A DNA stretch of 64,000 bases, taken from NCBI GenBank assembly GCA_949287065.1, contig CASEEV010000049.1:1-64000 (forward strand), in the 5' to 3' direction. The notes under the pieces were generated by a model. The model was not told the origin of the DNA, did no database searches, and worked only from the letters and a program-made list of their open reading frames with translations. This document shows, in pieces, positions 1,138-14,861 of this stretch. The stretch is from an uncultured Collinsella sp. (lineage in GTDB: Bacteria; Actinomycetota; Coriobacteriia; Coriobacteriales; Coriobacteriaceae). The position numbers and the translations under genes are program-made. Position 1 is the first letter of the stretch. Each line of letters starts with the position of its first letter.

Positions 1138-4100
1138 CTACCTAACACCACCTTGCTTGATATGGTCCAGCTTCTGGCTCACGACGCGGCTCACGCCGTC
1201 GGCCTGCATGGAGACGCCGTAGAGCACGTCGGCGTCCTCCATGGTCCTGCGCTGATGCGAGATGACGATGAGCTGCGTACGGTGGCGCAGCACGTCGATC
1301 GCATCGAGCAGTTTGGAGAGGTTCGAGTCGTCTAGGGCGGCCTCGACCTCGTCGAGCACGTAAAACGGCACCGTTCGGGTACGGTACACGGCAAAGAGCA
1401 GCGCGAGCGCCGTGAGGCTCTTCTCGCCGCCGCTCATGAGCATCATCTTGGTAATGCGCTTGCCGCGCGGCTGCGCGACGACCTCGATGCCCGTCTCGGA
1501 CGGATGGTCCGGATCGGTCATCTCGAGGTGCGCGGCACCGCCCGGGAAGAGCATGCCGAAGATCTCCTGGAAGTTGCGGTCGACTTTCTCGAAGGTCACG
1601 AGGAACTGCCGCCGCATCTTGCGGTCGATGGCCGCGGAGATCTTCGTGAGCGCGCTACGGGCGCTCTCGAGGTCCTTGAGCTGGACCTCGATGTAGTCGG
1701 CGCGCTCCTTGAGGCGATCGTACTCCTCCATGGCCACCTGGTTGACCGGGCCGAGGTTGCTGATCTGAGCCGTGAGCTTACCGAGTTCGCGCTCGGCCGC
1801 CGCACGGTCGTCGGGGGCCGGCAGCTTGAGCGCCTCCTCGAGAATCACGGCGCCGTCCTGCGTGATGGCGCGCACGGCGTTCTCGACCTGAACCTCGAGG
1901 CGCCCGCGCTCGACTTCGATGGCGTGCTGCGAGGCGTTCGCGCGCTCGAGCTCGTCGTGAGCGCGGCGCGACTCGGCCTTGGCGCCCTCGATCGTGCGCT
2001 TGAGGGAGTCGGAGTCGGCCTCCTCGATACGCGAGCGATCGCGCAGGTGCGCGGCCTTCTGCTCGGCGCAGTCGAGAAGCGCGCGATAGGTCTCGCGCAG
2101 CGGATCGACGCGCAGCCGCAGCACCTCGAGGGAGCGCGCCTGACCCGCGGCGGTGCGAATGCGGCGCTCGATGCCAGCGAGGCGGTTGGCGAGCTCGGGC
2201 TCGCGGCGCTCGAGGTTGCGCAGGCGCTCGGCGGCCTGCGCGGAGCGCACCTTGATCTCCGAGAGACGGGCCTGGGCGTCGGCCTCGAGCAGGCGCGCGC
2301 GGGCCATCTCGTCGTTCTTCTCGTCGAGCTCCTCGTTGAGCGCGGCCGCGCGGTCTTCGGCGTCCTCGCGAGCACAGGAGAGCTCCTCGAGCTTGGGCTG
2401 CGCGGCGCGCACGGCCTCCCCGGCCTCAGCGCGGCGGCGCTCCACCTGTGCGCGCTCGGAGGTGCTCTGGCGAACGATCTCGTCAAGGCGCCCGACATCC
2501 GATCGGACGGCTTTGAGCTCGCCCTCGGCCGCGGCAATGGAGCCTGCGACCTCGGCCACGCGCTCGCGCGCTGCGGCAAGCGCCGCCTGCGCGTCGTCGA
2601 CCGCTGTCGAGGCGGCACGAGAAACCTCCTCGAGCTCGGGCAGAAGCTCGCCGAGCTCGCGGATCCGGCGCTTGCGCTCGAGCACGCCGCGCGCTTTGTC
2701 GGCCTCGGTACCCACGCGCACGACGGCGCCTCCGCTCACGCGCGTGCCATCCGGCGTCACGTACACCACGCCGTCGACCGCAGGCGCTGCGAGGGCCTCG
2801 TCAAGCGAGCCCACCACGCGCAGGTTCCCGAGAAGGGCGCTGACCGCGCCCTCGAACCCGGGGCGCACGACGAGCCTGTCGAGCAGCGGGTAGCCGGCGG
2901 CGTCCGCCACTGGCGCCGCCTCGGCCGTCTGCGAGATCACGAGCGCGTGCCCGGAGCCCTGCGCCGCCTCGGCGCAGGCCGCAACGTCGGCGAGCGCTGC
3001 GGCATCAGCCACCACGAAGGCATCGACGTCCTCGCCCAGGATACCTTCCACGAGCTGCTCGAGCTCGCGCGGCACCTCGATGACGCCGCCGATGCGGGCG
3101 CGGATCGCATCGGCGCGGGCGCGCTCCACATGGGCCGCCAGCGGCGAGGCGGCGCTCGCTTGGCGGTCGAGCTTCTCGAGACTGGAAAGCTCCACCTGCA
3201 CCTCGGAGAGACGGCGGCGCGCCTCGGTCTCGGCGTTGCGCGCCGCCACCACGGCGTCGGACGCATCGGAAACCGCCTGCTTGGCCTCGTCGCGGGTGCG
3301 GCGCGTGTCCTCGAGCTCGGCTGCGAGCTCCTCGGCACGGTCGCGCCTGCTCGCAAGCGACGCCTCGGCGTTCTCTATGGCTTCGGTCAGCTGGTCGATA
3401 CGGCTTGCGTACAGCGAGTCCTCGACCTCGGCGTTCGCAAGCGTCTCGCGCACCTTCGCGAGCTCGAGGGCCGCGGCGTCGGCAGCGCGCTGCTGCTCGC
3501 GCGCCTCGCGACCGATGCGCCCGATAAGGGCATCGAGCTCGGTTCGGGCACGGCGCAGACGCTCGGCCTCGGGCTCGGCCTCCATGAGCTCGTCCGCGGC
3601 AGCGTCGGCCGCGCCGCGCACGTCCTCGAGCTCGCGGCGCACGTCTTCGAGCTCGCCGGCGATGCGGCGCTGCTGATGCTCGGAGCCCGAGAGCGAGCCG
3701 CGCAGCTCCTGCAGGCGCGCGGCCATGTTGCGGCCCTTCTCCTCGAGCAGGCGCATGTCGGACGCAAGGCGCGTCACCACGTCCTGCATCCGCCGGCGCT
3801 GCTCGCCGAGATCGCCCACGAACAGGCCCTTCTTCTCGAGCATAACCTGGAGCTTCTCGAGCTCGCGGTCCTTCTCGTCGGCGCGGTAGCGCGCAACCTC
3901 GATCGCCGCCTCGGCTTCCTTGGCGCGGGTCTCGACGCCCGACCACTGCTCCTGCAGGCGCCTCAGGTCGTCAACGGCGAGCACCGTCGTGAGCTCCTGG
4001 GCGCGCGCGGTAAGCTCCTTGTGCTTGCGCGCGCGCTCGACCTGGCGCTCGAGGGGCCTGAGCTGGCGGCGGATCTCGCGGTTGATGTCGCGGGCGCGCG

Positions 4101-4665
4101 TCAAGTGCTCGTCCATGCTCCTGATCTTGCGCAGGCTCCGCTCCTTGCGGCGCTTGTGCTTGGAGATGCCTGCGGCCTCCTCGATAAGCGACCGGCGCTC
4201 CTCCGGGCGGCTCTGGAGAATGGCGTCGAGCTTGCCCTGGCTGATGATGGAGTGAGTCTCCTTGCCGAGGCCCGAGTCATGCAGGATGTCCTGAATGTCC
4301 ATGAGGCGGCAGGGACTCGCGTTGATGAGGTACTCGCTCTCGCCGGAGCGGTACATGCGGCGCGTGATGGCGACTTCGTTGAAGTCGACAGGGAGCGTAC
4401 GGTCCGAGTTGTCGAGAACGAGGGTCACCTCGGCCACGCTCACCGGCTTGCGCGCCGACGAGCCCGAGAAGATCACGTCCTCCATGGCCTGGCCGCGCAG
4501 CTGCTTGGCACTCTGCTCGCCGAGGACCCAGAGGATGGCGTCGGAGATGTTGGACTTGCCCGAGCCGTTAGGGCCCACGACGACCGTGAGGCCGGGCTCG
4601 AAGACCATGTGGGCCCGGTCGGCGAACGACTTGAATCCTTTGAGCGTGAGGGACTTGAGATACAA
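1138..4665 (-). CDS. smc: Chromosome partition protein Smc
   Basis: Condensin-type ATPase that compacts and segregates the chromosome together with ScpA and ScpB, which are not in this window. The 1,175 residues show the full architecture: N-terminal Walker A GPNGSGKSN (31-39), a long coiled coil, a globular hinge around 510-650, a second coiled coil, and the C-terminal signature LMSGGEKSL (about 1076) with Walker B FYVLDEVEAALDD (about 1101). The start is a TTG preceded by GAGG, and the residues after it (YLKSLTLKGFKSF) match the family N-terminus. It sits 12 bases after rnc. Confidence 0.98.
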   Translation of the reverse strand: MYLKSLTLKGFKSFADRAHMVFEPGLTVVVGPNGSGKSNISDAILWVLGEQSAKQLRGQAMEDVIFSGSSARKPVSVAEVTLVLDNSDRTLPVDFNEVAITRRMYRSGESEYLINASPCRLMDIQDILHDSGLGKETHSIISQGKLDAILQSRPEERRSLIEEAAGISKHKRRKERSLRKIRSMDEHLTRARDINREIRRQLRPLERQVERARKHKELTARAQELTTVLAVDDLRRLQEQWSGVETRAKEAEAAIEVARYRADEKDRELEKLQVMLEKKGLFVGDLGEQRRRMQDVVTRLASDMRLLEEKGRNMAARLQELRGSLSGSEHQQRRIAGELEDVRRELEDVRGAADAAADELMEAEPEAERLRRARTELDALIGRIGREAREQQRAADAAALELAKVRETLANAEVEDSLYASRIDQLTEAIENAEASLASRRDRAEELAAELEDTRRTRDEAKQAVSDASDAVVAARNAETEARRRLSEVQVELSSLEKLDRQASAASPLAAHVERARADAIRARIGGVIEVPRELEQLVEGILGEDVDAFVVADAAALADVAACAEAAQGSGHALVISQTAEAAPVADAAGYPLLDRLVVRPGFEGAVSALLGNLRVVGSLDEALAAPAVDGVVYVTPDGTRVSGGAVVRVGTEADKARGVLERKRRIRELGELLPELEEVSRAASTAVDDAQAALAAARERVAEVAGSIAAAEGELKAVRSDVGRLDEIVRQSTSERAQVERRRAEAGEAVRAAQPKLEELSCAREDAEDRAAALNEELDEKNDEMARARLLEADAQARLSEIKVRSAQAAERLRNLERREPELANRLAGIERRIRTAAGQARSLEVLRLRVDPLRETYRALLDCAEQKAAHLRDRSRIEEADSDSLKRTIEGAKAESRRAHDELERANASQHAIEVERGRLEVQVENAVRAITQDGAVILEEALKLPAPDDRAAAERELGKLTAQISNLGPVNQVAMEEYDRLKERADYIEVQLKDLESARSALTKISAAIDRKMRRQFLVTFEKVDRNFQEIFGMLFPGGAAHLEMTDPDHPSETGIEVVAQPRGKRITKMMLMSGGEKSLTALALLFAVYRTRTVPFYVLDEVEAALDDSNLSKLLDAIDVLRHRTQLIVISHQRRTMEDADVLYGVSMQADGVSRVVSQKLDHIKQGGVR

Positions 4666-14216: not shown

Positions 14217-14350
14217 ATGGCATACGGCTGGGCATGCGTTCAGGTACCCACAGGTCAAAAGATATATGCGTCCCGAGACCCTCCTCCCTGCGCTGCGAAA
14301 CCGCCGGCATGAAGACGGCTCGCATAACGCGAACCCCCTGATGGGGCGCC

Positions 14351-14530
14351 AAGCAAAAAGCCACTTGATATGGCTGCCTGCGCTAAAGCACGGGCGATAC
14401 GGGCGGCTTTGCCAAAAATGCACATGAGACGAGTGGCCCACGCAAAATTGCACGCGATACGGACGGTCTGTGCTAAAGCGCTCGCGATACTGGCGGTCTG
14501 CGCAAAAACGTGCGCGATACGGGAACCGAT
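14351..14530 (+). repeat. Array 1 of a 30-bp tandem repeat
   Basis: Six consecutive units of exactly 30 bp, with no spacers. Most units share a CGCAAAA/TGCTAAAG box, then CGCGATAC, then GGCGGTCTG. The last three units (14441-14530) are the most alike; the units at 14351 and 14411 are diverged, and weak similarity may continue leftward to about 14290. The same repeat returns in the opposite orientation at 14641-14730. This is not CRISPR, because there are no unique spacers. Confidence 0.85.
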
Positions 14531-14610
14531 TTACGATCTTACGTCATATGTTCTACAGCACCAATCTTTTTGAGGAGCAATTGCGCACATATTCTGGATC
14601 GCGAGCGATG

Positions 14611-14730
14611 AATAGAGTGGTTTGGCGTCATGAGGCCTGGTATCGTGTGCGTTTCTGCGCAGCCGGTCAGTATCGGAGCGATTTCTGCACAGCAGGCCAG
14701 TATCATTTGCCTTTTTGCACATACGGCTGC
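14611..14730 (-). repeat. Array 2 of the 30-bp repeat, inverted
   Basis: Three clear 30-bp units (14641, 14671, 14701) and one decayed unit (14611) match the reverse complement of array 1. For example, the reverse complement around 14650-14674 reads GATACTGACCGG then CTGCGCAGAAACG, against GATACTGGCGGT then CTGCGCAAAAACG in array 1: 25 aligned bases with four differences. Together the arrays form a large inverted repeat around about 14570. Confidence 0.85.
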
Positions 14731-14861
14731 ATTAGGCAACGTTACCCATCGACCAACGCAACCCGTTAACAACGAGAACTCGTTTGGGCGCAACCAGGGC
14801 ATTGAGCGAAGCTTGTGCCGTTGTTAGTAAACACGAGATTGTCGTGACTTTGTGAATTGCG

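Follow-up and report, generated by a model that had tools for sequence, protein, structure and literature searches.

Among the closest known systems to the repeats described here is that of the RAYT (TnpA-REP) proteins with their REP and BIME repeats, also called REPtron (PMC2817692, PMC8266576). As in RAYT–REP, one nuclease-type gene, here g1, is flanked by two repeat copies (in 4/4 species) and accompanied by many solo intergenic copies. The repeat type also varies by lineage along with the gene, and the whole looks vertically inherited and domesticated. In contrast to RAYT, a Y1/HUH IS200-like transposase, the g1 product appears Vsr/EDxHD-like by predicted fold and profile and has no Y1/HUH Pfam match. 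REPs are 20-40-nt imperfect palindromes (single GTAG hairpins), often present in more than 100 copies, whereas the repeats studied here are non-palindromic 30-bp tandem units forming facing, phased arrays in some 11-30 copies, and their consensus has no GTAG-type head. Since the defining protein and repeat features of the RAYT–REP family fail, the system is not considered a member of it.

A further comparison is offered by the EDxHD homing endonucleases, of which I-Bth0305I has been reported to act as a dimer on a target that is unusually long, at nearly 60 bp (PMC3943268), which would fit a nuclease acting on a multi-unit array. The resemblance lies in the residues and, through weak matches, in the predicted nuclease fold, but the g1 gene is found outside any intron or intein, amid arrays of which the same genome has many further solo copies. 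Iteron or centromere-like arrays, such as parC of plasmid R1, consist of tandem binding units that flank a central region and assemble into one nucleoprotein complex. The arrays examined here likewise have tandem units on both sides of a core; unlike those arrays, they are chromosomal and numerous in each genome, have inverted arms and adjoin no replication or partition genes that could be seen. MITEs are also short and dispersed, with inverted ends, a likeness that is closest for an element of another genus (G046), but the ends here are unit arrays of variable number, no target duplication was recognised and the associated gene is no recognised transposase. Literature searches, incomplete in their coverage, turned up no account of repeats of this kind in the group; to that extent an EDxHD-like nuclease paired with facing arrays in helical phase looks new, with the RAYT–REP analogy standing beside it.

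Architecture of the array

The window is the whole stretch of 64,000 nucleotides that was analysed. It belongs to the genome G000, and G001, G002 and G003 are the other three available species of Collinsella, a genus of gut bacteria, so that the comparison covers four species, as draft genomes. The features of the array are as follows.

14350..14528, plus strand: left arm, six 30-bp units with box A TGCGCAAAA and box B CGATACGGG (position-weight scan)
14350, 14379, 14409, 14439, 14469 and 14499, plus strand: starts of the left-arm units (position-weight scan)
14379-14423, 14441-14489 and 14490-14519, plus strand: matches of model R1 in the left arm
14529..14631, no strand: core, separating the arms by 103 bp or some 10 helical turns
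14552..14580, plus strand: core site, a degenerate tctacagcaccaatctttttgaggagcaa (TCTACA-N13-TGTAGA-GTAA), at the distance from the left arm (23-24 bp) seen in other elements
14632..14721, minus strand: right arm, three reverse-oriented 30-bp units, which start at 14632, 14662 and 14692
14641-14671 and 14671-14721, minus strand: matches of model R1 in the right arm
14220..14836 (approximate), no strand: sequence present in G000, in place of which the closest sister species has about 90 unrelated bp

An earlier note on this DNA had described six units on one strand facing three or four units of the same exact 30-bp repeat in reverse orientation. The facing arrangement is real and far beyond chance, since it recurs at 12 other places in G000 and in the three sister species. 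The position-weight scan finds three reverse units and not a fourth, and exactness applies to the period, which is 30 bp throughout the plus arm except for one spacing of 29 bp preceding the second unit, and not to the sequence, as the units have diverged. Tandem Repeats Finder reports two short arrays at this locus (75-83%). The consensus of 129 units, TGCGCAAAA-N7-CGATACGGG-N5, comprises two conserved 9-bp boxes whose starts lie 16 bp apart, with variable sequence in between, in agreement with the short conserved boxes, as in protein-binding iterons, that the note had pointed out. True units mostly score 20-39 bits against a background maximum of 14.3 bits over 324,058 positions, with matrices trained on the same units that they score; the first and third plus units of the array are weak, at 14.4 and 16.1 bits. 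Near-identical repeats separated by unique spacers, the mark of CRISPR, are not found: the units are contiguous and diverged, lack spacers and form two inverted arms, so that the earlier dismissal of CRISPR holds.

Dispersal in G000 and its sister species

A search with 380 bases of the window matched about 10 other places in G000, often in both orientations less than 300 bp apart. The sequence-only model R1 recovers at least 13 full elements in this genome, together with a one-armed copy and single units; these element counts rest on model searches. All elements follow one plan of n units on the plus strand, a core and m units on the minus strand. Those of G000 are all intergenic, with unrelated neighbours, and mostly lie between tandem gene pairs, the gene calls beside them coming from a simple codon-usage script and not from an annotated gene set. 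The one-armed array of the window type is located at L079:3446-3564 (G000 C71) and L084:729-847 (G001 C116), a position conserved in both species, and single units are found in G000 at C26:3126 and C54:4200.

The sister species have their own elements, about 11-19 per species, with lineage-specific unit sequences. G001 carries the G000 unit type, and G002 and G003 share the architecture but build it from a different unit, TGGGCGAAAA-N6-T(C/G)ATACGAG. The search of the 30-bp consensus against the genome and its relatives that the earlier note had suggested thus reveals a family dispersed in G000 and present in three sister species, and the absence from relatives that would have spoken for a functionless duplication is not observed, as elements occur in G001, G002 and G003. 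Many element positions are conserved between sister species, one of them in all four (L078=L180=L114=L119), and between orthologous elements such as L018 and L083 conservation is limited to the boxes and the core site. Models R1 and R2 gave no match at the cut-offs used in 63 further genomes of the family. In the genome collection, an exact two-unit pattern had zero matches and an exact single-unit pattern 22 scattered ones, the one recognised true array among them being a sister-species record. Scans of viral contigs for phage carriage returned two and zero exact matches. A local duplication was considered and ruled out, the family being genome-wide in G000.

Core and helical phasing of the arms

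The inter-arm gap is usually 103-105 bp in G000 and G001, and 12 of the 14 cores examined in these two species contain a 25-bp core site, TCTACA-N13-TGTAGA, then GTAA, placed 23-24 bp off one arm. Copies of this site with at most two mismatches occur inside elements only, both in G000 (4/4) and in G001 (3/3), the window copy being too degenerate to count. The site is missing from L012b and L078, and a motif search of the G002 and G003 cores, which are heterogeneous, yielded no single core site.

The gaps of 39 elements from the four species fall on a ladder of 10.55 bp (R=0.87, jitter p=5e-5, clusters p=0.0017). Later elements, with gaps of 39, 19, -1, 73, 9, 9, 94 and 94, fit the period and phase already set on the first 39 gaps (p=5e-4 for 6 distinct values), and all 51 elements together give a period of 10.55 bp with R=0.883 and a cluster p=2e-4, the cluster test being the fair one because element copies share ancestry. 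Furthermore, orthologous elements either keep their gap or step by about one turn, as with the 9 bp of L019 vs the 19 bp of L024. This helical phasing is strong evidence, at the level of sequence, for a protein–DNA complex on double-stranded DNA that would join both arms. Gaps on the period of B-DNA argue for such a phased complex rather than for a hairpin RNA or a peptide, and lend support to the looped nucleoprotein complex that the note had raised as a possibility.

The window copy between rpmB and adhE

The element in the window is a solo one, and the rpmB–adhE interval has no element in G001, G002 or G003. In the alignment this interval measures about 870 bp in G000 and 340 bp in G001 and is shorter still in G002 and G003. 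In this comparison about 90 bp are replaced, the element ends are not sharp, and neither clean insertion ends nor a target duplication could be recognised; no clean empty site was found. The lack of the element in three sister species points to a gain in the G000 lineage, with loss as a possible alternative. The position upstream of adhE, to which the note had drawn attention, is incidental: elements adjoin many unrelated genes and adhE itself is present in the sister species with no element beside it, and there is no reason to link the window element to adhE expression.

A nuclease-like gene between two elements

In G000, two elements separated by 1.6 kb enclose the g1 gene, an open frame on the minus strand of contig C60 (2180-3247), and G003 has a 41%-identical frame likewise placed between two elements. 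A profile search identified one full-length ortholog per species in 4/4 species (E<=3.4e-131), and all four have elements on both flanks. The same search found paralogs in 66 of 67 genomes of the family, far weaker, the best at 1e-34. The gene occupies two chromosomal sites, between rpsI and nagB in G000 and G001 and between an SRAP-type gene and a LuxR-type regulator in G002 and G003; the nagB site of the latter two species holds neither gene nor element.

The predicted structure of the g1 protein is confident (pLDDT 88). Foldseek comparison of this model gave a best E of 0.03, to a viral endonuclease, and all E-values were weak; I-Bth0305I is a weak match (E 0.1, probability 0.93, TM (target) 0.51), and among the matches listed, again with weak E-values, were Vsr (probability 0.75) and AbaSI/PvuRts1I. 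A profile search with g1 reached a DUF559-like nuclease at E 6e-5, PvuRts1I at 0.006 and I-Bth0305I at 0.01, and there was no Pfam match below E 0.01. Comparison with PADLOC defence genes gave none for g1 and weak matches only for the paralogs. The motifs SPME, TPDL (PD), EYDS (EYD), H and D..RR are intact in 4/4 orthologs, and the putative active-site residues E215, D259, E270 and H277, with D..RR, are present in all of these and conserved in the family. By predicted fold and profile, the product looks like a Vsr/EDxHD, homing-endonuclease-like protein. With dN/dS values of 0.21 (G002–G003) and 0.25 (G000–G001, near saturation), the gene is, on codon comparison, under purifying selection.

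Divergence of the gene and its repeats between G000 and G001

G000 and G001 share 54% identity in the nuclease-like gene, vs 89-100% in most element-neighbouring genes. In G001, the arrays at the gene are of a new type, TGGCGAGAA-N6/7-CGATCCTA, for which model R3 detects several dispersed G001 sites and none in the other species. Some new-type sites are positionally orthologous to old-type elements (L179=L017, and L180, which corresponds to the position shared by all four species), and intermediate repeat types are seen at L023 and L083. Repeat turnover in G001 is incomplete, since the old-type elements L021, L022 and L024 remain alongside the diverged gene. Judged from these comparisons, gene and repeats are both strongly diverged in the same sister pair.

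Interpretation and alternatives

The reading put forward here, with a probability of roughly 0.55, is that the array in the window is a solo member of a dispersed family that serves as the binding array of the Vsr/EDxHD protein encoded between two elements. It draws on the dispersal and common architecture of the elements, the phasing of their arms, the bracketing of the gene in 4/4 species, its residues and purifying selection, the co-divergence with the repeats and the analogous paralogs. Each 30-bp unit would bind one protomer via its two boxes, and protomers of facing arms would meet across the core to form one compact complex, which may be why gaps change in whole helical turns. The protein would then cut elements, and repair from other copies could spread and re-type them; cutting and repair could also relocate the gene, as in homing. 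By analogy, the best reading is that the system works like RAYT–REP with an unrelated protein and repeat, and it may be either purely selfish or put to use by the host in chromosome structure or local regulation.

The elements might instead be chromosome-architecture or regulatory sites, that is, long-term host binding sites such as a looping or nucleoid-organising array, with the nuclease-like protein as a domesticated binder or a bystander. The positions conserved between sister species, including the one found in all four, the phasing of the arms and the lack of obvious recent copies within the genus agree with this account. It is nonetheless rather unlikely: some elements, including the one in the window, occur in a single species, the two chromosomal sites at which elements bracket the gene are unrelated, the repeat type turns over as whole sets and a similar nuclease-plus-repeat arrangement exists in another genus in about 30 copies. 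Passive relics, MITE-like remnants of mobile elements that have no present function and owe their regularity to their origin, would also be dispersed and intergenic, with inverted arms round a core and variable copy number, and the G046 copies do resemble a 167-bp MITE with inverted ends. However, the boxes, the 30-bp period and the helical phasing of the gap persist although units have diverged and been gained or lost, and retention between orthologous elements (L018/L083) is confined to boxes and core site, which makes this explanation improbable.

Two readings at the level of RNA or protein fare worse. A transcript folding as one long hairpin, acting as a terminator, processing or antisense signal, is very improbable. 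The whole element as RNA does fold better than shuffles (z=-4.3), as is expected of any inverted array, but single units show no such advantage, nested arm units are in no closer agreement at variable positions than non-nested pairs (0.411 vs 0.407, p=0.38), the gap lengths follow the B-DNA period and the element has no Rfam match; as a functional structure, the long hairpin suggested in the note is thus not borne out. The open frames with a 10-residue period, which arise because 30 is a multiple of three, could in principle encode a degenerate repeat peptide. This has next to no likelihood, as the conserved positions are two 9-bp boxes without a three-base rhythm, unit sequence and number vary freely and open frames exist on both strands, all in favour of the non-coding view of the array taken earlier.

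If the reading of a nuclease with its binding arrays is true, the system would be a second, unrelated solution to the role of RAYT–REP, namely a nuclease gene living with a population of short chromosomal repeats. G000 and G001 would then form a natural experiment on protein/DNA-site co-evolution and on whether homing can operate within one genome, since repeat type and protein have both sharply diverged between two close species. Additionally, the strict helical phasing leads to predictions that are testable with synthetic DNA alone.

Paralogs with other repeats

Several paralogs of the nuclease-like gene have repeats of their own on both flanks. Most paralogs, about 35 of the loci examined, have no repeats on both flanks, and the repeat-flanked paralogs are therefore a subset. 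A tentative extension, somewhat short of even odds, is a family-wide intragenomic homing in Coriobacteriaceae, in which Vsr/EDxHD paralogs would each have a cognate repeat type, with arms facing across a core, as landing and repair sites, co-evolving so fast that sister species differ in type at the same positions.

In G002, the L169 paralog is associated with a second repeat family, GCACCTGCCGAGA, which is dispersed at several sites of this genome and absent from the other three species. Its locations are the following.

L169:1440-1960 and 3795-4015: flanks of the L169 paralog
L190:2492-2925 and L108:6138-6515: other sites, in G002 only

Units of this family, GC[AG]TCTG[CT]CGAGAAGA, often have a 52-bp spacing, with minus arms on the left and plus arms on the right, the opposite polarity. 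The L177 paralog comes from another genus (G046, a complete genome), where a 167-bp element with inverted ends is dispersed in about 30 copies of 77-84% identity; this element is absent from the four sister species searched. The paralog itself lies between two direct, nearly identical 167-bp copies, and the conserved core of the element (C1, about 30 places; L177:2330-2745 and 4150-4480) contains AACCCCCGTGGGTT and CTGCAGGTAGATGA. The L165 paralog (G001 C85) has 23 copies of CTCCCAAGCCGGG in its flanks (1440-2045 and 3606-4140), spaced by about 32/60 bp and in both orientations, with none in the other G001 stretches examined. Short repeats are also present on both flanks of the L178 paralog in G059 (2720-2810 and 4093-4165, TAACTTTCGAAGC) and of the L150 paralog in G074 (1243-1430 and 2913-3106), where TTTCGATTTGTTG stands in mirror arrangement.
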